Shown here: piece by piece, positions 28,766 to 48,419 of the stretch
Numbering within the stretch: position 1 is the first letter of the stretch
How the letters are laid out: every line of letters starts with the position of its first letter
Assembly (NCBI RefSeq): GCF_000376825.1
Contig: NZ_AQXW01000003.1
Span: 186,001 to 250,000 of the forward strand
Direction: 5' to 3'
DNA from: Demetria terragena DSM 11295
Lineage (GTDB): Bacteria > Actinomycetota > Actinomycetes > Actinomycetales > Dermatophilaceae
DNA: 64,000 nt
Program-made: the position numbers and the translations under genes
Notes under the pieces: generated by a model
What the model was told of the DNA's origin: nothing
What the model saw: only the letters and a program-made list of their open reading frames with translations
Database searches by the model: none

Positions 28766-29992
<1,227 letters not shown>

Positions 29993-30177: not shown

Positions 30178-30193
30178 TGATTGTCGACAATCA
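30178..30193. promoter_or_regulatory. Operator copy 1 upstream of the MHS symporter gene
   Basis: TGATTGTCGACAATCA is a perfect 16-bp palindrome 34 bp before the symporter ATG. It shares the core ATTGTCGACAAT with the site at 32948 and, with one change, 41952. The form is typical of GntR/FadR-type operators; the FCD regulator at 36031 is the presumed binder. Confidence 0.75.
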
Positions 30194-30227
30194 CTATGAG
30201 CGAGCACCCGTCAGGGGAGGCCAGCAG

Positions 30228-31607: not shown

Positions 31608-31617
31608 CCAACACCGA

Positions 31618-31662
31618 CAGGCGAAGGGCCGCCACCCCAACGGGGTGGCGGCCCTTCGCCTG
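31618..31662. terminator. Bidirectional terminator between convergent symporter and aminotransferase genes
   Basis: A perfect 21-bp stem (CAGGCGAAGGGCCGCCACCCC and complement) with loop AAC lies between the stops at 31607 and 31677. Its symmetry and position suit termination from both sides. Confidence 0.85.
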
Positions 31663-31676
31663 TGCCGGGTGCGGGG

Positions 31677-32927
31677 TCAGAGCGTGGACGCCACGACCTT
31701 CTCCCAGATGCCGACTGCTTCGTCGACCAGTGGCTCGTCGACCACGAGGGCCGGGATGAAGCGCACGACCTGGCCCCAGGGTCCGCAGGTGAGGAGCAGG
31801 AGGCCCTGCTCGGCGGCGGCCTGTTGTGCCCGCGCTGCGGCGGCACCGTCCGGGTTGCCGTCTGCGTCGCGGAACTCGTTGCCAATCATGAGGCCGAGGC
31901 CGCGCACGTCGGTGATCGCGTCGTACTTGTCGGCCACCCCTTGCAATCCGGCCTTCAGCTGAGCACCACGAGCGGCGGAGTTCTCGACCAGCTTCTCCTC
32001 CTGGATCACCTCCAGAGTGGCTAGCGCAGCCGCGCAGGCCACGGCGTTGGCGCCGTATGTGCCGCCCTGCGAGCCTGGCCAGGCCTTCTCCATGAGCGCG
32101 CTGGAGGCGGCGATACCCGAGATGGGGAAACCGGAGGCGATGCCCTTGGCGGTCACCAGGATGTCGGGTTGCACGCCGAAGTGGTCCAGCCCCCAAAACT
32201 TGCCAGTGCGACCCCAACCGGTCTGCACTTCATCAAGCACCAGCAGGATGCCGTGCTTGTCGGCACGCTCCCGCAGGCCCTGCAGGAATGCCGTGTTCGC
32301 CGGGACGTAGCCGCCTTCGCCGAGGACTGGCTCGATGAAGAACGCGGCCGTTTCGTTCGGTGCGCTCATGGTTTGCAGGGTGTAGTCGAGTTGCTTGAGT
32401 GCGAAGGCGGTGCACTCTTCCTCACTCCACCCGAAGAATCCCGGGTCCGGGAACGGCGTGGTGTAGACGCCGCCCATCAGTGGCGAGATGCCGGCGCGGA
32501 ACTTCGTGCCAGACGTCGTCATGGTCGCGGTGGCGACCGTACGTCCGTGAAACCCGCCATGGAAGGTGATGATGTTGGGGCGACCCGTGGCCTGACGCGA
32601 CAAGCGCAGCGCGGCCTCGATGGCCTCCGAGCCGGAGTTGGCGAAGAAGGTCCGATCCAAGCCGGCCGGGAGTACCTCGCTCAGTCGCTCAGTGAGCTTG
32701 AGTAGCGGCTCGTGCATGATCGTCGTGTATTGCCCGTGGATGAGCTTGCCGACCTGCTCCTGCGCGGCGGCGACGACCTTGGGGTGGCAGTGCCCGGTAC
32801 TCGTCACTCCGATGCCCGCCGTAAAGTCCAAGTATCGACGCTCTTGGGCGTCGAAAAGCAACGCTCCTTCGCCGCGAGTCGCGACAACGGGAGTTGCTTG
32901 CTTCAGTACGGGAGACAGCTCGGCCAT
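31677..32927 (-). CDS. Class III (GabT/DoeD-type) omega-aminotransferase
   Basis: This 416-aa PLP enzyme transfers a terminal amino group, typically from 4-aminobutyrate, diaminobutyrate or a related diamine acid, to 2-oxoglutarate or pyruvate. The start is ATG 32927 after GGAGGTCAACG. Conserved parts are FFANSGSEAIEAALRLSRQ, FHGGFHGRT, LVLDEVQTGWGRTGKF with the PLP-contacting Asp, and the Schiff-base lysine in DILVTAKGIASGFPISG. It is divergent from the aldehyde dehydrogenase, with the operator between. Together they would convert an omega-amino acid to a semialdehyde and then to an acid. GABA and 2,4-diaminobutyrate are the leading candidates. Confidence 0.9.
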   Translation of the reverse strand: MAELSPVLKQATPVVATRGEGALLFDAQERRYLDFTAGIGVTSTGHCHPKVVAAAQEQVGKLIHGQYTTIMHEPLLKLTERLSEVLPAGLDRTFFANSGSEAIEAALRLSRQATGRPNIITFHGGFHGRTVATATMTTSGTKFRAGISPLMGGVYTTPFPDPGFFGWSEEECTAFALKQLDYTLQTMSAPNETAAFFIEPVLGEGGYVPANTAFLQGLRERADKHGILLVLDEVQTGWGRTGKFWGLDHFGVQPDILVTAKGIASGFPISGIAASSALMEKAWPGSQGGTYGANAVACAAALATLEVIQEEKLVENSAARGAQLKAGLQGVADKYDAITDVRGLGLMIGNEFRDADGNPDGAAAARAQQAAAEQGLLLLTCGPWGQVVRFIPALVVDEPLVDEAVGIWEKVVASTL

Positions 32928-32947
32928 CGTTGACCTCCAAGTTGATA

Positions 32948-32961
32948 GATTGTCGACAATC
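32948..32961. promoter_or_regulatory. Operator copy 2 between aminotransferase and aldehyde dehydrogenase genes
   Basis: GATTGTCGACAATC is a perfect 14-bp palindrome lying 20 bp upstream of the aminotransferase ATG and 43 bp upstream of the dehydrogenase ATG. It is identical in core to the site at 30178. One bound dimer could control both directions. Confidence 0.75.
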
Positions 32962-33004
32962 ACTCTAGAGCACAGAACCAACTCCGTCGAAGGGCACTTC
33001 ACTC

Positions 33005-34501
33005 ATGACAACGTCCTCCCAGACCTCGGGAAGCTCGACTCGTTCAGAAGCGGAACAACGAGTGCTTCAGCGCGTCGAATCGCGCATGCTGATCGGCGGC
33101 GAATGGGTCTCCGCTGAGGGCAATGCCACCTTCGACGTCGACGACCCAGCCAACGGTGAAGTGATCGCGCAGGTCGCCGATGCCACGCCGGCTGATGGAC
33201 GCCGGGCACTCGACGCGGCGGTGGCCGCGCAGGCCGACTTCGCCAAGACCACACCGCAGGAACGACATGACCTGCTGATGAAGGCGTACGACGCGCTCAT
33301 CGCAAACCAGGACGACCTCGCGCTCCTCATGACCTTGGAGATGGGCAAGCCCGTCGCCGAGGCGAAGGGCGAAATCACCTATGCCGCAGCCTTTTTCCGC
33401 CACTTCGCCCATGAGGCGCTGCGCATTGCAGGAGAGTTCCAGACCGCGCCCGCCGGAAACGCCCGGTTCATGATCACGAAGCAACCGGTCGGCCCGTGCC
33501 TGCTCATCACTCCGTGGAATTTCCCGCTCGCGATGGGCACCCGCAAGATCGGACCGGCCCTGGCGGCCGGGTGTACGAGCGTCATCAAGCCTGCGCACCA
33601 GACCCCACTGTCGATGCTCGCGTTGGGCCAGATTCTGGTCGACGTCGGTGTCCCACCCGGTGTCGTCAACATCGTGACCTGCACCGGGGCGGGCGAGGTG
33701 ATGGAACCGCTGATCCGGTCAGGAGATGCGCGAAAGCTCTCGTTCACAGGTTCGACCAAAATCGGCAAGGTGCTCCTGGAGCAGTGCGCGGAAAAGGTGC
33801 TCAGGACGTCGATGGAGCTTGGCGGCAATGCTCCGTTCATCGTCTTCGAGGACGCGGACCTCGACGAGGCGGTCACCGGAGCGATGCAGGCCAAGATGCG
33901 CAACATGGGCGAGGCGTGCACGGCTGCTAACCGAATCTACGTGCACGAGAGCGTGATTGAAGAGTTCGGTCAACGCCTCAGTGCAACAATGGCTGAACTG
34001 AAGGTCGGTCCTGGTACCGCCGAAGGCACTCAGGTTGGACCGCTGGTCGACCAGGCCGGACGCCAGAAAGTGAGTGATTTGGTCGCGGACGCCAAGGACA
34101 AGGGCGCTTCGGTGCTCACGGGTGGCGAAGCCCCGGACGGTCCGGGCTACTTCTACCCGCCGACGGTGCTGACCGGAGTGCCTGAGGACGCCCGCATGGT
34201 CCGGGAAGAGATCTTTGGACCGGTCGCGCCGCTCACTCCTTTCACTTCCGAAGATGAGGTCATTGCGGCAGCGAACAGTACCGAGTTCGGCCTCGTGTCC
34301 TATGTGTTCACCAATGACCTGCGACGCGCGCTGCGGGTCGCAGAGCGTATTGAGTCCGGAATGGTCGGGCTCAATCAGGGCGTGGTGTCCAACCCGGCCG
34401 CTCCCTTTGGTGGCATCAAGGAGTCGGGCTTGGGCCGCGAGGGCGGCAGCGTCGGCATTGATGAGTTCCTGGAGGTCAAGTACATCGGTGTCGCGATGTA
34501 G
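33005..34501 (+). CDS. NAD(P)-dependent aldehyde dehydrogenase, succinate-semialdehyde dehydrogenase-like
   Basis: This 498-aa enzyme oxidises an aldehyde to the acid. The catalytic general base is in MELGGNAPFIVFEDAD and the nucleophilic cysteine in MGEACTAANRIYVHES, where GabD-type enzymes read GQTC or GEAC. The cofactor-binding strand LSFTGSTKIGKVLLE precedes them, and the C-terminal SGMVGLNQGVVSNPAAPFGG closes the site. It is divergent from the class III aminotransferase and shares its operator, so the likely substrate is the semialdehyde that enzyme makes (succinate or aspartate semialdehyde). The stop lies inside the first copy of a 25-bp tandem duplication. Confidence 0.92.
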   Translation: MTTSSQTSGSSTRSEAEQRVLQRVESRMLIGGEWVSAEGNATFDVDDPANGEVIAQVADATPADGRRALDAAVAAQADFAKTTPQERHDLLMKAYDALIANQDDLALLMTLEMGKPVAEAKGEITYAAAFFRHFAHEALRIAGEFQTAPAGNARFMITKQPVGPCLLITPWNFPLAMGTRKIGPALAAGCTSVIKPAHQTPLSMLALGQILVDVGVPPGVVNIVTCTGAGEVMEPLIRSGDARKLSFTGSTKIGKVLLEQCAEKVLRTSMELGGNAPFIVFEDADLDEAVTGAMQAKMRNMGEACTAANRIYVHESVIEEFGQRLSATMAELKVGPGTAEGTQVGPLVDQAGRQKVSDLVADAKDKGASVLTGGEAPDGPGYFYPPTVLTGVPEDARMVREEIFGPVAPLTPFTSEDEVIAAANSTEFGLVSYVFTNDLRRALRVAERIESGMVGLNQGVVSNPAAPFGGIKESGLGREGGSVGIDEFLEVKYIGVAM

Positions 34502-34545
34502 GACCGTGGAGTCCATGCAGATGTAGGACCGTGGAGTCCATGCAT
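34496..34545 (+). repeat. 25-bp tandem duplication spanning the aldehyde dehydrogenase stop codon
   Basis: ATGTAGGACCGTGGAGTCCA followed by TGCAG occurs twice in a row (34496-34520 and 34521-34545), differing only in the last base. The first copy includes the TAG stop. The duplication leaves the protein unchanged and just adds 25 bp before the terminator. Confidence 0.85.
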
Positions 34546-34578
34546 AGGGGCCGGTCGAGATACTCGACCGGCCCCTAT
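34544..34578. terminator. Bidirectional terminator between aldehyde dehydrogenase and secreted protease genes
   Basis: ATAGGGGCCGGTCGAG and its exact complement flank the loop ATA. The inner bases GGTCGAGATACTCGACC resemble the short repeat elements at 743-1159 and 50571-50640. Confidence 0.82.
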
Positions 34579-34592
34579 CGCTGCCCTGCGAA

Positions 34593-35777
34593 CTACTGGG
34601 TTTCGAGCGTGACGCCGTAGTTCTTCGCGGCATCCCAGACTGGCTGCACATAACTCGTGCTGTTCTTGATGTTGCCCCCGTTAAAGGCGCAACGCTGGGT
34701 GGTGGGTCCGCCGGAGGTCATGCCCTGGGCCTGATCGCCCCAGATGTAGGCGCCGCCACTGTCCCCGGGCGCACTACACACTGTCGTGCGAGCGAGGCCG
34801 CTCACCGGTGTGCGCACGCCGGCTTGGTTCGTGTAGGTCACCCGGTTGTTGTAACTCTTGACATTGCCGCAGGTCCATCCCGAGGTGTTTCCGGCCTTAC
34901 ACACGGCGGCATTAATCGGGGCCTTCTGCATTCCTCGAACGGGGAGCGTGACTCCTGCGCGAGTGTCGACGTAGGGCTGTCCGGTGTCTTCGTTGTCAAT
35001 GTCCATGATTCCCATGTCGACGCTCGCTCGGCCTTCAGTAAAGCGCGTCGCGAAGGTGTATCCGAGCTTAGTTCCGGCCGCGTTGTAGACATTGGGGTAT
35101 TTCGCTAGGACGCAGTGTCCTGCCGTCAGAAGTACCGTGTGGCCGCCAGCAAGGCGCCCCGGAAATCCCAAGGAGCAGTATTTGTTGGGGTCGTTTGGGT
35201 CAAATCGCATCGCTTGGCCGGGGATGACGTCGGCATAGGTACTCAAGTCGTCGCCGCGCTTGACCGTCCCATCGGTCGTCGACTTGATCTGCGTGATCAC
35301 TGAACTCGGCGCGCTGTCCGTCACGGTGACGTTCAGCGTGCCCGTGGTGACGTCGGGCTCAATGGACTGGATGTGCGTCGACCGCTTGCCGAGGTCGGCG
35401 ACGAGTGCATCTGCTCGCTTGCCCAGCGTAGATTCGCCTCCTCCCACTCGGGCGGAGAGGCCAGCGGACCGAACCTTGGCCGCAGCCTTTTGCGAGGTGA
35501 CGACGACGACCAGTTTGTCGCCCTTGAAGTAGGACCCGTCGGCGGTGACGGTGCGCTCCACTGTCCGCAACGTTTTGCGCTGACGTTCTTGCGTGGAGAT
35601 GACGGCGCGAGCGGCCGTCGTGGAAATCCCTCGGTCTTTGGCGACAAACGAAGCGGCGGCATCCTTGAATGTGCCCGACGTGTCCGACGGTGGTGCGGGC
35701 GCGGCGGTGGCGCCAGAGGACAGTGCGACGGCGGCGAGGCCGACACCGCACACAGATGAAATGACTCGAGACTTCAT
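34593..35777 (-). CDS. Secreted S1-family serine protease (streptogrisin/alpha-lytic type)
   Basis: The 394-aa preproprotein starts at ATG 35777 after TCAGGAGAATTC. A signal peptide (to about residue 26, SSGATAAPA) is followed by a pro-region of roughly 150 residues (FKGDKLVVVVTSQKAAAKV, LGKRSTHIQSIEPDV) and the chymotrypsin-fold protease. Triad residues are His in VLLTAGHCVLAKY, Asp in VDMGIMDID and Ser in CSAPGDSGGAYIWGD. Six or more cysteines suggest disulfides. It would be exported and self-processed. Between its start and the GntR gene stop lies a 253-bp, comparatively AT-rich gap with no gene, presumably its promoter region. It has no evident link to the catabolic regulon and interrupts it. 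Confidence 0.93.
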   Translation of the reverse strand: MKSRVISSVCGVGLAAVALSSGATAAPAPPSDTSGTFKDAAASFVAKDRGISTTAARAVISTQERQRKTLRTVERTVTADGSYFKGDKLVVVVTSQKAAAKVRSAGLSARVGGGESTLGKRADALVADLGKRSTHIQSIEPDVTTGTLNVTVTDSAPSSVITQIKSTTDGTVKRGDDLSTYADVIPGQAMRFDPNDPNKYCSLGFPGRLAGGHTVLLTAGHCVLAKYPNVYNAAGTKLGYTFATRFTEGRASVDMGIMDIDNEDTGQPYVDTRAGVTLPVRGMQKAPINAAVCKAGNTSGWTCGNVKSYNNRVTYTNQAGVRTPVSGLARTTVCSAPGDSGGAYIWGDQAQGMTSGGPTTQRCAFNGGNIKNSTSYVQPVWDAAKNYGVTLETQ

Positions 35778-36030
35778 GAATTCTCCTGACCGAGATTCGA
35801 CGAGAAAATGGGCACCGCGCACGTCATCGCCAGTTCAGCGTCAATGTTGGGCTGGATGGGTGAAGTGTCGGGTTCTGCTATGCCGCCCCCGGCAACAAGG
35901 CGATCGTCACCTGATGCGACGCGACTCGTCAAGAATGAACGCTAAACCTTTACTCATTCCATAAGAATCCGGCAAGAATAGCGGCAGAAACGTGGAGAAA
36001 TGTGCTTCTGGAGGGTCGAAGATTCTCGAG

Positions 36031-36690
36031 TCAGGGAAGCAGGCGATCTACGCCGTCGCGCATGTGAGCCACGAGCAACCGATCGGTTTGCACCAGGTCG
36101 CCAGCGGCGAACGCGTCGGCGATGGCACGGTGTTCGGTGACGCGGGCTGCATTGCTCGCGTAGGTCGGTACCAGCGCGTTGAGGCACATGCGGGTTTCGG
36201 TGATGAGCGTGCGGTGCATCCAGATCAGCCGGCTGCTGTGGCTGCGCTCCACGAGAAGTTCGTGGAATGCCAGGTCGGCGTCGGTCACTTGCTGGTCGTC
36301 GGTGCCTTGGGTGGCTCGCTCCATCTGCTCCACAACCGAGAGCAGTGCGCTGCCGGTTGACCTGGCATCGCCGCGCGCGTGAACCTCGTCGGCTGCGCCA
36401 CGCTCCACCGCCTGGCGTGCGGTATAGACATCGCGCACGCGTTCTGGGGTCATGTCGATCACGAACAACCCACGGTTTCGTCGGGCGATCAGAATGCCTT
36501 CCTGGGTCAACCTCTGGAGCCCCTCCCGCAACGGTCCGCGGCTCACGCCAAGCTGTCGTGCGAGCTCGACCTCGCCCAGCTGTTGACCAGGAGCAATGTG
36601 TCCCAGCGCAATAGCCTCGCGCACGGTGCTCGCAACTCGGCTGGCCGTGGTCTCCTGGGCCAACGGTTGCAGTTCGGCGGCGGGTGTCAT
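36031..36690 (-). CDS. GntR-family regulator with FCD domain
   Basis: The 219-aa regulator starts at ATG 36690 after AAGGAGGAGG; the longer upstream frame overlaps the previous gene. The winged helix (LGEVELARQLGVSRGPLREG, residues 38-57) is typical GntR. The FCD sensor keeps the metal-binding pattern Asp139, His143, His187 and His209 (DLAFH, TEHRAI, LLVAHM). It is the last gene of the six-gene minus-strand operon. FadR/VanR-type proteins bind short palindromes like the three GATTGTCGACAATC-type sites in this region. I infer that it represses the locus and is released by a carboxylate intermediate. Confidence 0.92.
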   Translation of the reverse strand: MTPAAELQPLAQETTASRVASTVREAIALGHIAPGQQLGEVELARQLGVSRGPLREGLQRLTQEGILIARRNRGLFVIDMTPERVRDVYTARQAVERGAADEVHARGDARSTGSALLSVVEQMERATQGTDDQQVTDADLAFHELLVERSHSSRLIWMHRTLITETRMCLNALVPTYASNAARVTEHRAIADAFAAGDLVQTDRLLVAHMRDGVDRLLP

Positions 36691-36709
36691 GGCGTCAGCC
36701 TCCTCCTTC

Positions 36710-37447
36710 TCAGGATTGTCGGGCAAAAAGTCGCCCGGCGTGGGGAATGAGCGGGGTGTGCCCGAGCAGGTCGAGTCCCTTCCAGGTGGTCACCTGATTC
36801 GCGGTCAGCACCGTACGCCCGGCGGCCCGTTCGAGGTCATCCAGCCACGCGAGGGTGTGCATGGCAGTATCCGGAACCAGCACTGCCTGAACGTGAGCGG
36901 ATAGGTCGGCACCCGTGACGACCTGTTCGACTTGGTCTCGGCCTAAGGTCCCCACCTCAGCGGCCGTGATGATGCCGTGGCTGCCCATTCCGACCACCTC
37001 AATGTCGGCCGCGCGCAAGAAGGCGACGAACCTCTCCGCGATGTCCTGAGGATAGGAGGCCGCCACTGCGACTCGTTCGATGTTGAGTGCTCGGCACGCA
37101 TCGACAAAGGCGAATGACGTTGAGGATGCTGGCCGCTCGCATGCCTGCGAGAGTTGCTCGACCTGGTCGGCAGCACCTTTCCATCCGAAGACGAATGAAC
37201 CCGAGGTACACGCCCACATGACGCTCTGAGCACCCAAAGCCACCAGTTCGCGAGCCCCGTCAGCGAGGTAGTCGGCATTCCCGATGTCCAGGAGAGGCCC
37301 GACTTCGTGGGCGTCGATGTCCATGCGGGTGTGGATGAGCGGTAGATCGATGGGGATGCCAGCGTCGCGAACACGCGCGGCAAAAGCGGGGTAGTCGTCT
37401 TCGGCGCTGTATCCGGGGTACAGCATGCCGACCGTGGGTGTGGTCAT
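36710..37447 (-). CDS. Asp/Glu racemase-fold protein (maleate isomerase/EutA-like), second catalytic Cys missing
   Basis: The 245-aa product starts at ATG 37447, overlapping the M20 deacylase stop (ATGA) and preceded by GAAGGA. It resembles maleate cis-trans isomerase and arylmalonate decarboxylase relatives: VGMLYPGYSAEDDYPAF, then VMWACTSGSFVFGW with the first catalytic cysteine (Cys80). In the position where the second cysteine normally sits in an SCTN motif, this protein reads VLVPDTAMHTLAW (Asp193). It may therefore be a decarboxylase- or hydrolase-like variant, or non-catalytic. The C-terminal LTANQVTTWKGLDLLG is as in the family. Its paralogue at 41089 keeps both cysteines. Confidence 0.85.
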   Translation of the reverse strand: MTTPTVGMLYPGYSAEDDYPAFAARVRDAGIPIDLPLIHTRMDIDAHEVGPLLDIGNADYLADGARELVALGAQSVMWACTSGSFVFGWKGAADQVEQLSQACERPASSTSFAFVDACRALNIERVAVAASYPQDIAERFVAFLRAADIEVVGMGSHGIITAAEVGTLGRDQVEQVVTGADLSAHVQAVLVPDTAMHTLAWLDDLERAAGRTVLTANQVTTWKGLDLLGHTPLIPHAGRLFARQS

Positions 37448-38673
37448 GGTGCTTCCTTCGTGGGGGTGGACACGAGTAGCCGCCACGCGGTGAGCGCATA
37501 GGCCCGGGCAGCGGTAACGACTTCGTCTACCCCGACAGACTCATCGGGCCGATGGGCTTGGTCGTTGACCGATCCTGGGCCTAGCACGACCACCGGAACA
37601 TCCCAGTCGCGGGCGACGAAACCGCCGTCGCAGGCGGCAGTCCACCCGCCGAGTGGATGGCCGGGCCCGCCCGCCGCGGTCAGTGCTTCGTCGAGCGCGC
37701 ACACGAAGGGGTTGCTCGGTGCCGTTTCGAAGCCGGGCATGCTCATCGGCAAACTGAGTTCAACGGTGAGACCGTCCTGGTCAAGGTGGAGTGTGTCGAT
37801 ACGCGCCTGCGCATCTTTCTCGACCTGCGCCGGATCCTCGTGGGGCAGGAGACGTCGGTCGACCTGAATGTGGCACTTTGCAGGCACGATGGAGGTGCCC
37901 TGACCGCCGTCGATCATGCCGACATTGAACGTTGCGGGGCCGGCCAGTTCATGGGGTGTTGCGGCGAGTTCGCCGTGCCAGGCGCGTAGTTCCGCCACGA
38001 TCCGGGCAGCGCCGTAGATCGCATTGCGACCGTCGTCAGGGCGCCCCGAGTGGGCAGCCACTCCGGTGACGACGATGTCGAGGTAGGCGTCACCGCGCGC
38101 AGCGATGACCGTTTGGAGGTCGGTTGGCTCAGCAGTGATGCATCCCTGGTAGCGCGCGGGAGGGGGAGAGTCGATGAGCGCGCGAATGCCGATCCCGGCC
38201 TCCTCCTCGTCCACGGTGGCCAGGAGATCGATCGGTCCGGTGAGTTCGGCTCCGAGTTCGCTCGCGAGCTGTCGGACTACGGCCATCGCCTCGAGGCACG
38301 CCGCGAGGCCACCTTTCATGTCGGTGCTACCTCGCCCGAAGATGCGTCCATCGCGCACCTCGGCACCAAACGGGTCGGTGCTCCATCCGTCCCCAATGGG
38401 GACAACGTCGGTATGCCCGAGGAGAAGCAATCCGGGACCCGCGGTGTCGCCGTCCGCGCGGACGGCGACGTTCTCGCGGCCCGGGGCGACCTCGGTCTGC
38501 GTCACCGTCAGTCCGCGCTCGGAGGCAAGCTCGCTGAGGACAGCGACCGTCTCTGCTTCTTCGCCGGGTGGATTCTGGCCGCGCGCCTGGACAAGTCGTT
38601 GGGTGGCCTGAATCAACCAGGTCTTGTCGATGCGATCGAGGAGAGTCTGCTCCGCCGTGGTCAGGTCAGTCAC
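37444..38673 (-). CDS. M20-family deacylase/peptidase (ArgE/DapE type)
   Basis: This 409-aa dinuclear zinc hydrolase cleaves an N-acyl group from an amino acid or splits a dipeptide. The metal motifs are complete: LLLGHTDVVPIGDGW, GRGSTDMKGGLAACL with the bridging Asp, the catalytic TVDEEEAG glutamates, and the C-terminal QAHRPDESVGVDEV histidine. The dimerisation domain lies in between (VVTGVAAHSGRPDDGRNAI). The start overlaps the aminotransferase stop by ATGA and the stop overlaps the next start. In context it is the best candidate to deacylate the product of the ectoine-hydrolase-like enzyme, a job done by the unrelated DoeB/EutE in known ectoine pathways. Confidence 0.9.
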   Translation of the reverse strand: MTDLTTAEQTLLDRIDKTWLIQATQRLVQARGQNPPGEEAETVAVLSELASERGLTVTQTEVAPGRENVAVRADGDTAGPGLLLLGHTDVVPIGDGWSTDPFGAEVRDGRIFGRGSTDMKGGLAACLEAMAVVRQLASELGAELTGPIDLLATVDEEEAGIGIRALIDSPPPARYQGCITAEPTDLQTVIAARGDAYLDIVVTGVAAHSGRPDDGRNAIYGAARIVAELRAWHGELAATPHELAGPATFNVGMIDGGQGTSIVPAKCHIQVDRRLLPHEDPAQVEKDAQARIDTLHLDQDGLTVELSLPMSMPGFETAPSNPFVCALDEALTAAGGPGHPLGGWTAACDGGFVARDWDVPVVVLGPGSVNDQAHRPDESVGVDEVVTAARAYALTAWRLLVSTPTKEAP

Positions 38674-39872
38674 TCCGATTCCACCTTCTCAATGGCTCGG
38701 GCGAGGCGGGTCACGCCTTCGTGGATTCGGGCCGGCGGCATCGATGCGAAACACAGGCGCAGGTCGTGCGGGAACCGGCGGCTGGGGGAGAAGGCGTTGC
38801 CAGGAATGAACGCGACACCTTCTGCCAATGCGACCTCGAACAGTCTTTCGGTGTCGACTGATTCGCCGAGTTTCACCCAGAGAAAGAAGCCGCCTTCGGG
38901 GTCGGTCCACCGCGCCTTATCGCCGAGTTGCTCGGTGAGCGCAGTCTGCATCGCATCCTTGCGGTCACGGTATGAGACGCGCTGCGTTGCAAGGTGATCC
39001 GCGAGATGTCCTTCGCGTAGGAAGCCTGCGACGAGCCGCTGGAGTGGCAAGTTCGTGCACGTGTCCATGGCCTGCTTGGCACTGATGAGGAGCGGCTGCA
39101 GACTCGGGTCGGCACTCACCCATCCCACCCGCAGCCCGGGAGCGATGATCTTGGAGAAGGTCCGCACCGAGAAGACAAGCGGTTCACCGTTTGCGACCTC
39201 CTGCAGTGAGGGCACGGGTTCGCCTGCGAAACGGAGCATGCCGTATGGGTCGTCGTCGATGATGACGCTGCCCCAGCGCTGGGCGAGTTCAAGCAGCCGC
39301 TCGCGTCGCTCGAGCGACATCGAGGCACCCGACGGGTTCTGGAATGTGGGGATCGCGTAGATGACTTTGGGCGTCCGGCCCGCCCGCACCACCAACTCCT
39401 CGAGTTGCTCGACGTCAAGACCGTTCTCGTCGACCGGCGCCTCAAGAAGCTCCGCCTGATAGGACAGGGCAGTTGCGGATCCATTGGTGTAAGTAGGGGA
39501 TTCGACGACGACGAGGTCACCGGGATCAACGAACAACTTGAACGCCAGGTCGAGGCCTTGCATGCCCCCGGAGGTGATCGTCAGGCGGTCAGGAGTCGTG
39601 GCGTCGGTTGTGCCGGCCAACTCGGCGAGCAAGGCTTCACGCAAAGCGCTGTCACCCTCGGTCGCGGCGTAGTCAAACGCGTCGGCCGCTCCAGCGCCCA
39701 TCGTCTGGACGGCCACATGAGCCAGCGTGTGCGTGGGTACGGCGTCCGCGGCAGGGGAGCCCATCGCGAACTTCACGATGTCGTGAGTCTGCTGAGCCAA
39801 CAACGATGTACTCGAGTCGATGACCGACCCCACAAGGTAGTCGGCGCGGCTGGCTAGGGGCAGGTCGGTCAT
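38670..39872 (-). CDS. Class I PLP aminotransferase (2-aminoadipate/LysN-MocR-like)
   Basis: The 400-aa enzyme starts at ATG 39872 (MTDLPLASRADYLVG) after GAAGGAG, 5 bp beyond the previous stop; the annotated frame extends upstream without support. Typical motifs are DYAATEGDSALREAL, YAIPTFQNPSGASMSLERR, DDDPYGMLRF, and the Schiff-base lysine in FSVRTFSKIIAPGLRVGW. The fold is that of MocR aminotransferase domains without the DNA-binding part. Substrates in this family are diverse (2-aminoadipate, aromatic or branched amino acids). In this operon it probably removes the alpha-amino group of a released amino acid. Confidence 0.88.
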   Translation of the reverse strand: MTDLPLASRADYLVGSVIDSSTSLLAQQTHDIVKFAMGSPAADAVPTHTLAHVAVQTMGAGAADAFDYAATEGDSALREALLAELAGTTDATTPDRLTITSGGMQGLDLAFKLFVDPGDLVVVESPTYTNGSATALSYQAELLEAPVDENGLDVEQLEELVVRAGRTPKVIYAIPTFQNPSGASMSLERRERLLELAQRWGSVIIDDDPYGMLRFAGEPVPSLQEVANGEPLVFSVRTFSKIIAPGLRVGWVSADPSLQPLLISAKQAMDTCTNLPLQRLVAGFLREGHLADHLATQRVSYRDRKDAMQTALTEQLGDKARWTDPEGGFFLWVKLGESVDTERLFEVALAEGVAFIPGNAFSPSRRFPHDLRLCFASMPPARIHEGVTRLARAIEKVESE

Positions 39873-39877
39873 TCTGC

Positions 39878-41092
39878 TCACTCCTTCACAGTCAGGCCAC
39901 GAGGGACCTGTGTTAGTAGTTCTGGGCCGTCGTCGCCGATGATGAGCGATTCGGATGTCTCGTATCCCCACCCGTCCATCCACATACCGAGGATGACGTG
40001 AAAGGCCATGCCGGCGCGTACCTCCGTCTCCTCCTCGGCGCGGAGGCTGACGGTGCGCTCACCCCAGTCGGGCGGATAGCCGATGCCGATGGAGTATCCA
40101 ATGCGGGACTCCTTCGAGAGTCCTTGGCGGGCAATGGTGGTCGTGAATGCACGATGGGCGTCGCGACAGGCGTTGCCGGGCCGCAATTGTTCCAAGGCGG
40201 CGGCCATCCCGTCGCTCACGGCTGCCGAGCAATAACTCAGGCGGTCCGGTGGTCGGCCGAGCACGACCGTTCGCGCCAGGGGTGCGTGATAGCGGTGGTG
40301 CACGCCAGCCAACTCAATGGTTGTCGCTTCACCCGCGATGAGAGGTAGGTCGGACCAGGTGAGGTGGGGGGTGCCAGCGGTCTCGCCAGTGGGGAGCATG
40401 GGAACGATAGCGGGGTAGTCGCCGCCCAACTTGCGGGCACCCAAGGTCTGCGTGCGCTGGATCTCCGCCACGACATCGCACTGTCGCCGTCCCACTTCGA
40501 TCTTCTCGATGGCCCGCTTCATGACCCGAGTCGCGACACGTCCGGCTTGGCGCATCTTCTCCTGCTCCAAGGGAGATTTGATGACGCGGACCCAGTTGAC
40601 CAGTTCATGGCTGTCGATCAGCGCGGCATTGCGCAGGTGGGCATGGAGGGCAAAGAACCCGCGGGGTGAGAAGTAGTGCGCGTCCGTCTCGGCAGCGACA
40701 TAGGTTCCGGGAGCGTCGCTGAGTACGCCTGTCTCCAAGGCGCGTTCGGCGATCCAGTCGAACGGGTGAACGTCAGTCCGGTGCACGAGCCACTCGGGGT
40801 AGCCGTGAATGTGGTCACGGGCCAGGGAGGCGGTGTAGTGCGCTCCTTGGGCATCCATGGCCCGGGCGAAGAGGTGTGGGGCACCTTCGACCGGAACGAT
40901 CAGGCACTGAGGCATGTAGAACGACCACGCGTTGTAGCCGGTGAGGTAGTAGAGGTTGGCTGGATCGACCACGACGAGCGAGGAGATCTGCCGCTCAACC
41001 ATGCGAGCCTGGACTGCGTGGAGCCGGCTGGCGTACTCGGTCAGGGGGAACGGCCGGGAGCGCAGTTCGTCGTCCGGGTTTGGGATGGTCAT
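39878..41092 (-). CDS. M24/creatinase-fold hydrolase, ectoine hydrolase (DoeA/EutD)-like
   Basis: The 404-aa protein starts at ATG 41092, overlapping the upstream stop (ATGA). It closely recalls DoeA/EutD ectoine hydrolases over its whole length: LYYLTGYNAWSFYMPQCLIV (residues 47-66), NWVRVIKSPLEQEKMRQAG, GGDYPAIVPMLPTG, TPHLTW, YPPDWGERTVSLRAEEETEV and the terminal QVPRGLTVKE. Where M24 metallopeptidases carry metal-binding aspartates it reads TIELAGVHHRYHAPLARTVV with Glu260, so it is probably metal-independent like DoeA. Characterised relatives open the ectoine ring to N-acetyl-2,4-diaminobutyrate. A related cyclic amidine or an acyl-amino acid is possible. The pathway around it is not the canonical one. 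Confidence 0.86.
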   Translation of the reverse strand: MTIPNPDDELRSRPFPLTEYASRLHAVQARMVERQISSLVVVDPANLYYLTGYNAWSFYMPQCLIVPVEGAPHLFARAMDAQGAHYTASLARDHIHGYPEWLVHRTDVHPFDWIAERALETGVLSDAPGTYVAAETDAHYFSPRGFFALHAHLRNAALIDSHELVNWVRVIKSPLEQEKMRQAGRVATRVMKRAIEKIEVGRRQCDVVAEIQRTQTLGARKLGGDYPAIVPMLPTGETAGTPHLTWSDLPLIAGEATTIELAGVHHRYHAPLARTVVLGRPPDRLSYCSAAVSDGMAAALEQLRPGNACRDAHRAFTTTIARQGLSKESRIGYSIGIGYPPDWGERTVSLRAEEETEVRAGMAFHVILGMWMDGWGYETSESLIIGDDGPELLTQVPRGLTVKE

Positions 41093-41943
41093 GCTGCGTC
41101 CTCTGCCGTACGGGTGATGAGGGACTGCCCGGTACCCACCGTGGCAACGCCAGCGAGTTGGAGAGCGGCCCAGATGGTGACCTGGTTGGCGGTCAGGACG
41201 GGGATGCCGAGCTCACGTTCAAGTGGCGCGATGAGGTCGTACGTCGGGACGTTGGTGCAAGAGATGAAGACGGCGTCGCAGCCAGCTGACTGATCGACCG
41301 CCTGGCGCACGAGCTCCACCGTCGCCGCGTAGGGGATGCGCCAGATCAAACCGTGCAAGCCGAGGTGGGCACTAGCGGCGACGCCGATGCCAGATTCGGC
41401 CAGGAAGTCAACCAAGAGTTGGGTGATCTCGGTGTCGTAGGGGGTCGCAACAGCCACCCGCTTGATGCCGAGGTGGTTCATCGCCATGACCATTGCCCCG
41501 CTGGTCGTCATGGCGGCTGGAGCTCCGGAGCCGAGCATCGCGTCGACCAACGCGGACTCCCCGGCGCGGCCGTGCACGAAGGAGCCTGAGGTGCACATGT
41601 AGGTGACGACGCGCGGTTGCGTGGCAATCAAGCTGGTGGTGCAGGAGGCCACGACGTCGGTGTCCCCGACGGCAAGTGCCTGATCAACACTCACGGGCAG
41701 GGCCGCATACGGCGTGCGAGTCGTGAGAAGGGCGACGTCCTCGGGCGCCCACCGCCACAGTTCTCGGTCCAGGGCAAAGTCGTACGGCGCGACGATGCCA
41801 ATGCCGACGCCGCCAATGGGCGCAATGGCTGGCAAACCCAGGGGATTCGGTGGCGCGGTGACTTGACCCTCAACCTGATCAGAGAGCGCGGGGTGCTCCG
41901 GTAGTGCGGAGCCGTGATCGGACGACACCGCACCATGGTGCAC
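41089..41943 (-). CDS. Asp/Glu racemase-fold protein (maleate isomerase/EutA-like), both catalytic Cys present
   Basis: The 284-aa product (GTG 41943; GTG 41928 is equally possible) keeps the two-cysteine active site. Cys117 is in VVTYMCTSGSFVHG and Cys229 in VFISCTNVPTYDLIAPLE. IGIVAPYDFALDRELWRW and the LTANQVTIW tail match maleate isomerase and the EutA proteins of ectoine clusters. It is the first gene of the minus-strand operon and begins only about 8 bp from the operator at 41952, with no ribosome-binding site, suggesting a leaderless or near-leaderless mRNA. The long open frame further upstream crosses the operator and the divergent gene and is not used. The reaction is unknown; isomerisation of an unsaturated dicarboxylate is plausible. 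Confidence 0.84.
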   Translation of the reverse strand: MHHGAVSSDHGSALPEHPALSDQVEGQVTAPPNPLGLPAIAPIGGVGIGIVAPYDFALDRELWRWAPEDVALLTTRTPYAALPVSVDQALAVGDTDVVASCTTSLIATQPRVVTYMCTSGSFVHGRAGESALVDAMLGSGAPAAMTTSGAMVMAMNHLGIKRVAVATPYDTEITQLLVDFLAESGIGVAASAHLGLHGLIWRIPYAATVELVRQAVDQSAGCDAVFISCTNVPTYDLIAPLERELGIPVLTANQVTIWAALQLAGVATVGTGQSLITRTAEDAA

Positions 41944-41951
41944 GCCATTGT

Positions 41952-41967
41952 GGATTGTTGACAATCC
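41952..41967. promoter_or_regulatory. Operator copy 3 in the divergent promoter of the nine-gene locus
   Basis: GGATTGT-TG-ACAATCC has 7-bp perfect arms and differs by one central base from the ATTGTCGACAAT core at 30178 and 32948. It lies 8 bp from the racemase-fold start and 18 bp from the hydroxyacid dehydrogenase start, so a bound regulator would block both promoters. Confidence 0.72.
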
Positions 41968-41985
41968 GCCGCGCGGGTTCCTAGC

Positions 41986-42981
41986 GTGCAGCCTGTGACT
42001 GCCACTCTGCCCGTCCTCGTGGTTCTTTCGGCTCCGGGCGAGGATGCCCCTCCTCAGGTGGCCGCATTGCGGGATCGGATGGAGATCCGTGTCGTGGATG
42101 CGGATCACCTGGCCGAGGCGCTGCCAGGCGCTGACGCGCTGTTTGTGTGGGACTTCTTCAATCCTGCGCTCGCGGCGGCCTGGAAGCATCAGGACCGGTT
42201 GAGGTGGATGCACGTTGCCTCGGCGGGCGTCGACGCGGTTTTGTTTGACGAACTCCGCGCGTCGTCGGTGGTCCTGACCAACGCGCACGGAATTTTTGAT
42301 CGGCCGATTGCGGAGTTTGTGCTGGCGAGCGTCCTTGCCGAGGCGAAACTCCTCCATCAGTCCGCTGACTTTCAGCGCGCCCGCGAGTGGGTTCACCGCG
42401 AGCCTCGAAGTGTCGAAGGTGCCCGGGCCATGATCGTGGGAACCGGGGGAATCGGTCGGGCGACGGCTCGACTCCTTTCTGCTGTCGGGATGCAGGTCGT
42501 CGGCGCCGGGCGCACGCCGCGCTCGGGCGACCCAGACTTCGGGGAGGTGGTGGCCAGCGATCGACTTGCCGAGCACATCGCGGATGTCGACTTCTTGATC
42601 AACGCCGCGCCGCTGACACCGAGCACCACCGGGCTGCTCAACGCTGAGGTGTTCCAGGCATTGCCTTCCCACGCGCACGTGGTCAACATCGGCCGTGGGC
42701 CGAGCTTGGTAGAGGCCGATCTCGGGAAGGCCATACGCGAAGGGGCGATTGCAGGCGCTTCATTGGACGTCTTCGAGGTCGAGCCGCTGCCGAACGAGTC
42801 GCCGCTGTGGGATCTTCCTGGGGTGCGGATCTCGGCCCACATGTCAGGTGATGTCGCGGGCTGGCGAGACCGACTGGCCGAACAGTTCGTGGACCTCGCC
42901 GAGCGCTGGCTTGAAGGCGCGCCCATGCCGCACGAGATCGACAAACAGAATGGCTTCGTGACTTCAAGGAGTGGTTCATGA
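41986..42981 (+). CDS. D-2-hydroxyacid dehydrogenase family oxidoreductase
   Basis: This 331-aa NAD(P)-dependent enzyme has the Rossmann loop MIVGTGGIGRATARLLSAVG (about residues 145-164). The catalytic Arg is in VVNIGRGPSLVEADLG, Glu in ASLDVFEVEPLPNES and His in VRISAHMSGDVAG, the usual R-E-H set. It would oxidise a D-2-hydroxy acid or reduce a 2-oxo acid. GTG 41986 and GTG 41995 are possible starts; neither has a ribosome-binding site, and the operator is only 18 bp upstream, hinting at leaderless translation. The stop overlaps the amidase start (ATGA). It probably interconverts the 2-oxo acid left by a transaminase of the locus. Confidence 0.9.
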   Translation: MQPVTATLPVLVVLSAPGEDAPPQVAALRDRMEIRVVDADHLAEALPGADALFVWDFFNPALAAAWKHQDRLRWMHVASAGVDAVLFDELRASSVVLTNAHGIFDRPIAEFVLASVLAEAKLLHQSADFQRAREWVHREPRSVEGARAMIVGTGGIGRATARLLSAVGMQVVGAGRTPRSGDPDFGEVVASDRLAEHIADVDFLINAAPLTPSTTGLLNAEVFQALPSHAHVVNIGRGPSLVEADLGKAIREGAIAGASLDVFEVEPLPNESPLWDLPGVRISAHMSGDVAGWRDRLAEQFVDLAERWLEGAPMPHEIDKQNGFVTSRSGS

Positions 42982-44402
42982 CCGATCTATCCATGGTGAG
43001 CGCAACTGAGCTAACCGACGGATTCCGTTCGGGCGAATGGACGCCCGTGGACGCCTTGGAAGCGGCCATGGGCGCTGTCGAGAAGTACGACAGCGCAGTC
43101 AACGCGATCACCATGGTCGATGAGCAGTACGCCCGGGCGCGCGCCGAGGACTCGGCGGCGCGGTGGTCGTCCGGCGACCCGATAAGCGCTACGGACGGCA
43201 TCCCGTTGACGGTGAAAGACATGATGCCCACTCAGGGTTGGCCGACTTATCGCGGAAGCAACCTCATCGGAGACGAGGGCCCGTGGGATCTGGACGCCCC
43301 GTTCGCGGCTCGGTTGCGCGAGGCGGGTCAGGTGATCTTTGGCAAGAACACCACACCGGAGTTTGGGTGGAAGGGCGTGACCGACTCGCTCCGGCATGGT
43401 GTGACGCGCAATGCGTGGAATCCGGACCGTACCTCTGGCGGCTCTAGTGGCGGCGCCGCCTCGGCGACGGCGCTCGGTATGGGCACCTGGTCGGTGGGTA
43501 CCGACGGTGGCGGATCAGTCCGAATACCAGGCGCATTCAGTGGAATCGTCGCACTTAAGCCGACCTACGGGCAGGTGCCGGTGTTTCCGGCAAGCCCTTA
43601 CGGCACCCTGTCGCACATTGGTCCGATGACCAGGTCAGTGCGTGATTGTGCGCTGCTCCTCGACGTGATTTCCGGCCCTGACTCACGCGACTGGTCGGCG
43701 ATGCCCACGAGGCGCTCGTCCTGGACGGATGGCCTCGGCCAAGGTGTCGCCGGTATGAGACTTGCCTACTCAGCCAACCTTGGCTACGGACATAACGCTC
43801 CAGGGGTCGACGCTGCCTTCCACGCTGCACTCGACGTTTTACGTGGCCTTGGCGCCGAGATTGACGAGGTTGAGTTGGGACTCGACGATCCCGTCGAGGC
43901 GTTCCACACTCTGTGGTTCACTGGCGCCGCGAAGGTCGTCGATGCATACGGCGACGGGGCCCGCGAGCGCATTGACCCTGGATTGCGTTCTGCCATTGAG
44001 CAATTCGGCGATGGCGCCACCGCTCAGGACTACCTGGACGCCACTGCGGTCCGCGCGGAATGGGGTCGTCGCACCGGGGAGTTGCACGACACCTATGCAG
44101 CACTCCTCACGCCCACGATGCCCATCCCGGCATTTGCCGCGGGTCAACCAGCGCCGGACGGCTGGCACTCCCAACTTTGGACATCCTGGTGTCCCTATAC
44201 CTACCCGTTCAACATGACGCAGCAACCTGCGCTGACCGTCCCGTGCGGATTCACCGGCGAGGGTCTGCCTCTTGGACTGCAGGTCGTCGCGGCCCGGCAT
44301 CAGGACGCCACCACATTGCGCGTTGGCCATGCCTACGAATCCGGCACCAACTGGCATCACCTGATGCCGCCCCTGCTTTCGGAAAGGCGAGACCGCCCAT
44401 GA
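42978..44402 (+). CDS. Amidase signature family hydrolase
   Basis: This 474-aa hydrolase contains the Ser-cisSer-Lys triad. The lysine is in DGIPLTVKDMMPTQGWPT, the nucleophile region in NPDRTSGGSSGGAASATAL, and GTDGGGSVRIPGAFSGIVAL follows as in all AS enzymes. The C-terminal FNMTQQPALTVPCGF is typical too. ATG 42978 follows CAAGGAG and overlaps the dehydrogenase stop; the stop overlaps the DUF3830 start. The substrate is unknown; cleavage of an amide formed or taken up with the rest of the pathway is expected. Confidence 0.92.
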   Translation: MTDLSMVSATELTDGFRSGEWTPVDALEAAMGAVEKYDSAVNAITMVDEQYARARAEDSAARWSSGDPISATDGIPLTVKDMMPTQGWPTYRGSNLIGDEGPWDLDAPFAARLREAGQVIFGKNTTPEFGWKGVTDSLRHGVTRNAWNPDRTSGGSSGGAASATALGMGTWSVGTDGGGSVRIPGAFSGIVALKPTYGQVPVFPASPYGTLSHIGPMTRSVRDCALLLDVISGPDSRDWSAMPTRRSSWTDGLGQGVAGMRLAYSANLGYGHNAPGVDAAFHAALDVLRGLGAEIDEVELGLDDPVEAFHTLWFTGAAKVVDAYGDGARERIDPGLRSAIEQFGDGATAQDYLDATAVRAEWGRRTGELHDTYAALLTPTMPIPAFAAGQPAPDGWHSQLWTSWCPYTYPFNMTQQPALTVPCGFTGEGLPLGLQVVAARHQDATTLRVGHAYESGTNWHHLMPPLLSERRDRP

Positions 44403-44902
44403 CCCGCTACATCACGATCACCTTGGAGAGGCGCGCCGTGACCTGCCGAGCGCGGCTCCTCGACGACGTCGCACCGCGGACGTGCGCCGCGCTCTGGGAT
44501 GCGCTACCGGTGACCTCGCCGGCCTTCCATGGCAAGTACGCCCGCAATGAGGTCTACGGGCTGGTCACTGATTGGGACGCCGCGGAGCCGGGGCCGGAGA
44601 ACACTTCGATCACCCCGATTCCCCGTGACGTCATGTGGTTTTCGTTCAGCGGAGACCAACTCGGAAATCCCGCTTATGGGTACGAGGCTGAGTCGGATAA
44701 TCGAGGTGCGAACCGTATCGTTGACCTGGCGATCTTTTACGGCCGCAACAACTTGTTGATCAACGGGGACCAGGGCTGGGTCCCCGGCAATGTGTTCGCC
44801 GAGATCACTGATGGGTATGACGAGATGGTCGCCGCGTGCCACAGCGTCTGGATGGACGGGGCGCGCGGCGAGACCATCACGTTCGCCCGGGTTGCCGACT
44901 AA
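44399..44902 (+). CDS. DUF3830 family protein
   Basis: The 167-aa product starts at ATG 44399 (MTRYITITLERRAVTCRA), overlapping the amidase stop by ATGA; the frame continues upstream only as shadow. DUF3830 proteins have a cyclophilin-like beta-barrel. Visible landmarks are APRTCAALWDALPVTSPAFH near the N-terminus, DVMWFSFSGDQLGNPAYGYE and IFYGRNNLLINGDQGWVPGN. The first of these is like cyclophilin-like TM1367 folds (TC..LWDALP). The family's function is undefined. It is the last gene of the plus-strand arm. The 126 bp after it to the RDD gene hold no clear feature. Confidence 0.85.
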   Translation: MTRYITITLERRAVTCRARLLDDVAPRTCAALWDALPVTSPAFHGKYARNEVYGLVTDWDAAEPGPENTSITPIPRDVMWFSFSGDQLGNPAYGYEAESDNRGANRIVDLAIFYGRNNLLINGDQGWVPGNVFAEITDGYDEMVAACHSVWMDGARGETITFARVAD

Positions 44903-47171: not shown

Positions 47172-48419
47172 TCAGTCGATGGGGACTGCCGGGAGGATGG
47201 TGCCGGTCACTTCGCCGAGGGCGATTCGGGAATCTCCCTGACCTGCCGCTGTGTAGGTCATGGTCACGGTGTCGCCGTCCTCCAAGAATTCTCGTGTCGT
47301 GCCGTCGGGGAGCGCCAGTGGCTCCTTCCCGCTCCAGGTCAGCTCGAGCAGACTTCCGCGCTGGTCGTCTTCGGGGCCAGAGACCGTGCCAGAGGCGAAC
47401 AAGTCACCTGACCGCAGACTCGCCCCGTTCACGGTCAGGTGAGCGAGCATCTGCGTGGGCGACCAGTACATCGACGCGTACGGCGGTCGGGACACTACGG
47501 TGCCGTTGAGCGACACCTCGATGTCAATGTCTAGTCCGTAGAGATCACGACCGAGAAGGTAGTCCAGTGGCTTCGGATCCTGTTGGGGCAGAGCGGTCTT
47601 CGCGTGCTCTAGCGCGGCGAGCGGCGTGATCCACGCGCCAATGGATGAGGCGAAGGACTTGCCGAGGAACGGGCCGAGCGGAACATACTCCCACGCCTGG
47701 ATGTCGCGAGCGCTCCAGTCATTGAATGGGACCACGCCAAACAGGTGCGCCCCGGCGTCGTCGACACTGACACGGGTGCCCAGTTGCGTCGCTCCACCCA
47801 CAACGAATCCCAACTCAGCCTCGATATCGAGACGCATGCTCGGGCCAAAGAGTGGCGCCGGCTCAGTCGGCGGCTTGCGCTGACCGATCGGGCGGACGAC
47901 GTCCGTGCCGCTGACCACGACCGTGCCAGCGCGCCCGTGGTACCCAATCGGCAAATGCTTCCAGTTGGGGGTGAGGGCCTCACTGTCCGGGCGGAAGATG
48001 CTTCCCACGTTGGTGGCGTGATGCTCGCTGGCATAGAAGTCGACGTAGTCGGCCACGACGATCGGCAGATGCAGGTCGACGTTGTTGATTGGGATGAGGT
48101 GCGGCGCGGTCCGCTCGCGGTGTACCGGATTGCTCAGGACCTCAGTGAGCCACTCGCGGGCGATAGCCCACACGGGTGCGCCAAGGTCGAGAAAGGCGTT
48201 CAGGGAGGGGGTGCGCCACGCCTTCGCGAGGTCGGGGCCGTCACCCGGGTCGCCATATGCTGCAACGGCGCTCGCGTCGAGCACGAAGTCGCCGATACGC
48301 ACACCCACACGAGGGTCCTCGTGCGGGAGGGAAAAGACGCCATAGGGGAGAGTGGCCAGGCCGTACGGGTGGTCGACCGGCAGGTCGAGCCAACTGGTCG
48401 ACGGAGTGGAAGTGGTCAT
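47172..48419 (-). CDS. fahA: Fumarylacetoacetase
   Basis: This enzyme cleaves fumarylacetoacetate to fumarate and acetoacetate, the last step of homogentisate catabolism; 415 aa. The N-terminal SH3-like part has HPYGLATLPYGVFSL. The catalytic domain has VVADYVDFYASEHHATNVG, HLPIGYHGRAGTVVVSG, DIEAELGFVVGG with the metal-binding Glu, and NDWSARDIQAWEYVPLGPFL with metal/substrate contacts. The start overlaps the end of the preceding unknown gene by ATGA, so the two form an operon. Confidence 0.97.
   Translation of the reverse strand: MTTSTPSTSWLDLPVDHPYGLATLPYGVFSLPHEDPRVGVRIGDFVLDASAVAAYGDPGDGPDLAKAWRTPSLNAFLDLGAPVWAIAREWLTEVLSNPVHRERTAPHLIPINNVDLHLPIVVADYVDFYASEHHATNVGSIFRPDSEALTPNWKHLPIGYHGRAGTVVVSGTDVVRPIGQRKPPTEPAPLFGPSMRLDIEAELGFVVGGATQLGTRVSVDDAGAHLFGVVPFNDWSARDIQAWEYVPLGPFLGKSFASSIGAWITPLAALEHAKTALPQQDPKPLDYLLGRDLYGLDIDIEVSLNGTVVSRPPYASMYWSPTQMLAHLTVNGASLRSGDLFASGTVSGPEDDQRGSLLELTWSGKEPLALPDGTTREFLEDGDTVTMTYTAAGQGDSRIALGEVTGTILPAVPID

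Follow-up and report, generated by a model that had tools for sequence, protein, structure and literature searches.

Gene content and layout of the locus

The locus described here lies on a 64,000-nucleotide stretch of the Demetria terragena DSM 11295 genome (contig NZ_AQXW01000003.1, positions 186,001 to 250,000; hereafter the window) and comprises 12 genes at positions 30179-44902 of that stretch, among them a gene for an M24-fold protein related to the ectoine hydrolases EutD and DoeA. Nine of these genes had been listed in an earlier note on this DNA, and their positions and families were confirmed by an open reading frame check and family scans. The same note had treated the class III aminotransferase, the aldehyde dehydrogenase and the ProP-like symporter (30228-34501) as distant; these three belonged to the same locus and shared its operator, a palindrome present in three promoters.

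The reverse strand encoded Amdase1, an EutA-like protein (41089-41928), the M24-fold protein (39878-41092), the class I aminotransferase AT1 (38670-39872), a zinc deacylase of the M20 family (37444-38673), Amdase2, a paralogue with the EutA/arylmalonate-decarboxylase fold (36710-37447), a GntR/FCD regulator (36031-36690) and the class III aminotransferase (31677-32927), both aminotransferases being assigned by family match. The forward strand encoded the ProP-like metabolite:H+ symporter (30228-31607), the aldehyde dehydrogenase (33005-34501), a D-2-hydroxyacid dehydrogenase family protein (41986-42981), an amidase of the PRK06169 family (42978-44402; 655 bits against a cut-off of 506) and a DUF3830 protein (44399-44902). 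Gene starts were corrected by comparison with relatives for AT1 (39872), Amdase2 (37447), GntR (36690), the class III aminotransferase (32927), ProP (30228), DUF3830 (44399, formerly 44060) and Amdase1 (about 41928, formerly 42678), the last of these being uncertain. The sole interruption of the locus was a gene for a trypsin-like secreted protease (34593-35822, reverse strand), which was not counted as a member.

The M24-fold protein, its partner enzymes and the accessory module

The best NCBIfam match of the M24 protein was the EutD/DoeA family TIGR02993 (431 bits over the full length), the next unrelated M24 family reaching 66 bits. The full-length identity of the protein to Halomonas DoeA was 45%, with 175 of 388 shared columns identical in the multiple alignment, which bears out the resemblance described in the earlier note. 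The closest solved structures were those of H. elongata DoeA (6twj and 6twk; phmmer E-value of 4e-103 to 6twk). All five positions that hold the metal ligands of metallo-M24 enzymes were replaced (E260, P271, Y333, I367 and S380), whereas the metallo-M24 comparators (distant Erysipelotrichia and Butyrivibrio proteins and one M24 protein of the same genome) read DDHEE. The glutamate of the ELAGVHHRY segment (E260), already pointed out as a replacement for a metal aspartate, aligned with Glu255 of H. elongata DoeA and was invariant in 51 actinobacterial relatives. EutD reportedly acts through a covalent mechanism.

A phylogeny (IQ-TREE), run because a placement among metallo Xaa-Pro peptidases had been raised as contrary evidence, put the M24 protein in an EutD-like clade supported at 97/98 against the nearest non-EutD group, M24 proteins from Pantoea and Agrobacterium, and at 100/100 against metallo-M24 proteins; the actinobacterial subclade containing it was supported at 100/98. 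Across EutD-like proteins, 55 positions including Glu255 were kept in the alignment, and 25 positions fixed in four known DoeA proteins differed in the actinobacterial clade. A non-metal M24 group (EAYPS) was also seen on Pantoea and Agrobacterium plasmids (L122:2959-4128 and L123:3001-4170), together with M20 and mandelate-racemase-type genes.

No homologue in the whole genome exceeded the curated cut-offs for EutE (best 78 of 402.7 bits), EutB (best 222 of 413 bits) or EutC (119 of 472 bits), as had been proposed from the window. EutE and EutB exceeded their cut-offs in none of the 22 actinobacterial genomes that encode the M24 protein, D. terragena included, while both did so in an alphaproteobacterial control genome. 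The M20 protein scored above the ArgE/DapE cut-off (226 against 217.6 bits) and its zinc-ligand positions (H87, D89, D118, E156, E157, E182 and H374) were invariant in 47 of 47 sequences, which makes it a natural stand-in for EutE. The ArgE substrate, N-alpha-acetyl-ornithine, is the next higher homologue of N-alpha-acetyl-2,4-diaminobutyrate, and both this chemistry and the gene context mark the M20 deacylase as a putative replacement for EutE.

The aldehyde dehydrogenase, a putative DoeC/Ssd, was 47% identical to the Leisingera enzyme at the Ssd position and reached 566 bits for the SSADH subfamily (cut-off 646). The class III aminotransferase, a putative DoeD/Atf converting 2,4-diaminobutyrate to aspartate semialdehyde, was 31% identical to the EctB of the same genome and was conserved next to the aldehyde dehydrogenase in related loci. 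Counting these two putative enzymes, the known ectoine route would be covered; the mismatch with the known pathway that had been claimed for the nine genes would then stand for the EutE step, putatively taken over by M20, and not for the route as a whole. A gene for threo-3-hydroxyaspartate ammonia-lyase adjoined the locus in Segeticoccus; the copy in the D. terragena genome (487 bits against 452) had no exact operator and was left out of the route for that reason.

Amdase1, Amdase2, the amidase and DUF3830 are considered together as a four-gene module. The two proteins first described as racemase-fold were both of the arylmalonate-decarboxylase/EutA type, and the description could be refined: Amdase1 was related to EutA and retained the two catalytic cysteines (C94 and C206 in a 261-residue reading), while Amdase2 kept the first cysteine and had an aspartate in place of the second in all 24 aligned sequences that are ungapped there. 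The folds closest to the AlphaFold model of Amdase2 (predicted local distance difference test score of 90) were arylmalonate decarboxylase and maleate isomerase. The DUF3830 protein, of cyclophilin-like fold, was 62% identical to the uncharacterised PDB 3kop and weakly resembled the Pictet-Spenglerases KslB and McbB; no DUF3830 match was found in PLSDB plasmids.

Among 32 loci with enough flanking sequence, Amdase1 and the amidase occurred together in 25 and were jointly missing from 7 (Fisher p = 3e-7, which overstates independence because the loci are related). Two Flexivirga loci without the module carried a gene for an EutB-like dehydratase directly after the hydroxyacid dehydrogenase, and for the one scanned (L056) the scores of 284 and 316 bits fell below the cut-offs of 413. 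Actinomycetospora, also without the module, possessed an EutB-like gene (224 and 245 bits, below cut-off), and it was only in these two genera that such a gene stood beside the core. The presence of an EutB-like gene in three module-less loci suggests that the module replaces EutB.

A shared operator, conservation in relatives and transporters

The promoters of the three transcription units had in common the palindrome GATTGTNNACAATC, present as GATTGTCGACAATC 36 bp upstream of the ProP start (30179-30192) and between the class III aminotransferase and aldehyde dehydrogenase genes (32948-32961), and as GATTGTTGACAATC in the divergent promoter (41953-41966). These sites were the only three exact matches in the 3.57-Mb genome, where about 0.04 were expected from base composition and the reversed control had zero matches. 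Exact sites were also confined to the locus in several other genomes. In 42 related loci the relaxed form ATTGTNNACAAT occupied the divergent promoter adjoining the hydroxyacid dehydrogenase, the same place as in the window; it adjoined the aldehyde dehydrogenase in 21 loci and a FAD/Fe-S dehydrogenase in 15. Relatives of the latter dehydrogenase were seen in 20 actinobacterial loci, and also near the EutD-like gene of the haloarchaeal locus L072. Two Kribbella genomes (G301 and G302) had 16 and 14 exact operator sites, mostly outside the fetched locus, which may reflect either a broader regulon or another regulator that uses the same site.

The GntR/FCD protein is the putative repressor reading the operator, as gene and site correlated over 73 loci (both in 34, neither in 27, site only in 11, gene only in 1), in a tally that spans related loci uncorrected for relatedness and in which several of the 11 site-only loci were short contigs. 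An EnuR-type (MocR-type) regulator was not found in the locus, whose regulator was of the GntR/FCD type; AT1 possessed a MocR-type aminotransferase domain without the DNA-binding domain.

A scan of GTDB genomes for M24 relatives yielded 63 loci, in which genes of high-GC sequences were picked with a codon model. G136, the closest of the relatives found to carry the locus, had the 12 genes in identical order, with an M24 protein 81% identical and no trypsin-like insertion at the corresponding place. The gene arrangement is thus far beyond chance, as G136 keeps all 12 genes in order and a class I aminotransferase accompanied the M24 relative in 43 of the 63 loci; AT1 itself was 65-86% identical in most related loci. 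The core consisted of the hydroxyacid dehydrogenase, M24 and AT1, usually with M20, GntR, the aldehyde dehydrogenase and the class III aminotransferase. Minimal sets of M24, M20 and ProP only were present in Pseudoclavibacter, Leucobacter and most Gulosibacter loci, and these operons are counted in favour of an ectoine substrate because they mirror the EutD-EutE-transporter set.

Other arrangements were also observed. A genome of the same family (L111) had an M24 gene (64%) beside similar flanks, with the remainder of the locus missing. In four Kribbella loci (L026, L029, L038 and L040), two DUF1989 genes and genes for a biotin carboxyltransferase-type protein, an amino acid permease and a second amidase lay between AT1 and M20, and additional operator sites were present. 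Judging from translations, the window's locus is flanked by a 4-hydroxyphenylpyruvate-dioxygenase-like gene (28787-29992) and a fumarylacetoacetase-like gene (47172-48419); the latter also adjoined the locus in L010, and a gene of the same cluster was found in L007 and L013.

The operator also fronted an EhuB-related transporter gene in five loci (L017, L021, L035, L049 and L053). The EhuB of L021 passed the NCBIfam ectoine/hydroxyectoine cut-off (264 against 191 bits), as did EhuA, EhuC and EhuD of L049 (370 against 345, 258 against 197 and 257 against 205 bits, respectively), and the remaining Ehu genes were recognised by tblastn (EhuA, 94-95% in L035 and L053; EhuB, 66-67% in L035, L049 and L053). 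These co-regulated EhuABCD-type loci in related genomes strongly indicate an ectoine-type substrate, the class of compound that the earlier note had proposed. Relatives of ProP stood at 68% in a Luteipulveratus locus and at about 40% in the Microbacteriaceae operons that combine M24, M20 and ProP. The D. terragena genome possessed EctC with an adjoining EctB-like gene, which suggests that the organism makes ectoine itself; a search for EctD gave no match, but was equally silent in the control genomes and is no evidence of absence.

Proposed route, alternatives and known systems

The locus is interpreted, with a probability of roughly 0.8, as a variant regulon of 12 genes through which soil actinobacteria would take up and catabolise the salt protectant ectoine, and probably also hydroxyectoine. 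In the route that we infer, ProP would import ectoine, the non-metal M24 enzyme would open the ring through Glu260 to give N-alpha-acetyl-2,4-diaminobutyrate, and the M20 zinc enzyme would remove the acetyl group as an ArgE-type deacetylase in place of EutE, after which the class III aminotransferase would make aspartate semialdehyde and the aldehyde dehydrogenase aspartate. The best reading is that these last two enzymes supply the DoeD and DoeC steps and that the GntR/FCD protein replaces EnuR; it would repress all transcription units via GATTGTNNACAATC until a presumed ectoine-derived inducer appears. A hydroxylated branch, the job done elsewhere by EutABC, would be served by the four module proteins (Amdase1, Amdase2, the amidase and DUF3830) together with AT1 and the D-2-hydroxyacid dehydrogenase, although this part of the proposal is weaker. 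For hydroxyectoine, the four-gene module may take the place of EutB and EutC; the idea that it forms a new 5-hydroxyectoine route jointly with AT1 and the dehydrogenase is advanced tentatively, with the chemistry of DUF3830 and Amdase2 left unassigned.

Several observations weigh against this interpretation. The M24 protein scored below the curated EutD cut-off of 613 bits, for which reason it is named EutD-like and not an equivalog; the two EutA-like proteins reached 105 and 63 bits, far under the NCBIfam EutA cut-off of 318; and ProP, with 386 bits for its best NCBIfam family, ProP, fell short of 544. The class III aminotransferase was only 28% identical to the Leisingera (alphaproteobacterial) enzyme at the Atf position, M20 was not seen within the fetched stretch of three relatives (L006, L012 and L014), and no EhuABCD or UehABC transporter was found in the window's own locus. 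Curated scoring covers one EhuB and one EhuA/C/D set among the five operator-linked Ehu loci, and the EhuB of L017 was just 34% identical to that of L021 (tblastn). Finally, ectoine as the sole substrate leaves AT1, the hydroxyacid dehydrogenase, the amidase and DUF3830 without an explained role.

The low EutD score, the 25 altered DoeA positions and the additional amidase, DUF3830 and dehydrogenase would all suit a locus that degrades some other cyclic amidine or N-acyl diamino acid through an M24 enzyme of drifted specificity. This is improbable, given that the operator fronts EhuB-related genes in five loci, that the Ehu proteins scanned from two of them pass their cut-offs and that EutD-like proteins retain 55 positions, Glu255 among them. 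A peptide utilisation cluster built on a metal-dependent Xaa-Pro dipeptidase has the M24 fold in its favour and next to no probability: the metallo-peptidase reading was rejected on the replacement of the five ligands and on the tree, which separates the protein from metallo-M24 enzymes.

For the module, the alternative is a second, unrelated substrate, with co-regulation as its sole tie to the ectoine genes. The module can be dispensed with, being absent from Flexivirga, Leekyejoonella and two Ornithinimicrobium loci in which the core is retained, and amidase and DUF3830 chemistry misfits ectoine itself; this view is nevertheless rather unlikely, since Amdase1 is an EutA relative and an EutB-like dehydratase stands beside the hydroxyacid dehydrogenase in two module-less Flexivirga loci. 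There is also a small chance that the amidase is the deacetylase, acting on alpha- or gamma-acetyl-diaminobutyrate, and that M20 acts elsewhere, as the three core loci without a visible M20 would allow, one of which (L006) has the amidase. The other two (L012 and L014) had neither gene, whereas the minimal M24-M20-ProP operons keep M20 and not the amidase, and M20 sits in the M24 operon of the window.

Ectoine consumers were held to be restricted to Proteobacteria in a 2018 review (PMC5924519), and 363 of 363 eutD/eutE pairs were found there (PMC8739950). Hydroxyectoine use by R. pomeroyi requires EutABC, whose activities are unknown (PMC8739950). The earlier statement that no published pathway has this gene set needs qualifying, as a 2026 report (PMC13188858) presents provisional Gram-positive clusters (eutD, abgB, thrA, adh), with no eutE in the Bacillaceae examined. 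In the literature searched, no description of the regulon, the operator or the four-gene module was found, with the proviso that the Actinomycetota examples of that report, accessible in part, may include the locus; searches on hydroxyectoine with hydroxyaspartate, on DUF3830 and on the operator sequence together with GntR yielded no pertinent papers. By tying an EutD-like hydrolase to EhuABCD-type loci in relatives, the operator makes a direct, testable case for actinobacterial ectoine catabolism, and the locus offers a comparative handle on EutABC and a pathway context for DUF3830, whose structure is known and function is not.

Among known systems, the haloarchaeal clusters of Haloprofundus (L072) and Haladaptatus (L125), in which the operator was not sought, likewise had an M24 EutD-like protein. 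L072 also contained a D-2-hydroxyacid dehydrogenase, a FAD/Fe-S dehydrogenase, an amidohydrolase and a class III aminotransferase, but differed in its M28 peptidase, glutamate dehydrogenase and threonine ammonia-lyase; L125 had a maleate-isomerase-type protein. The cluster of Priestia megaterium (L071), of the type described in PMC13188858, resembled the present locus in its EutD-like M24 protein, M20 family enzyme and aldehyde dehydrogenase and in the absence of EutE. It carried PucR, EutB, an EutC-like cyclodeaminase, a cystathionine-gamma-synthase-like enzyme and homoserine dehydrogenase, all missing from the present locus, which differed in turn by its operator and four-gene module. With the proteobacterial ehuABCD-eutABCDE clusters (enuR, asnC, ssd, atf) and the doeABCD cluster of Halomonas, the locus had in common an EutD-type hydrolase, an EutA-like protein and a putative pair of aminotransferase and aldehyde dehydrogenase leading to aspartate, and related actinobacterial genomes had EhuABCD-type loci as well. 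Unlike those systems, it lacked EutE, EutB, EutC and EnuR, and possessed M20, a GntR/FCD regulator with its own operator, AT1, a D-2-hydroxyacid dehydrogenase, the amidase, DUF3830 and a second EutA-like paralogue.

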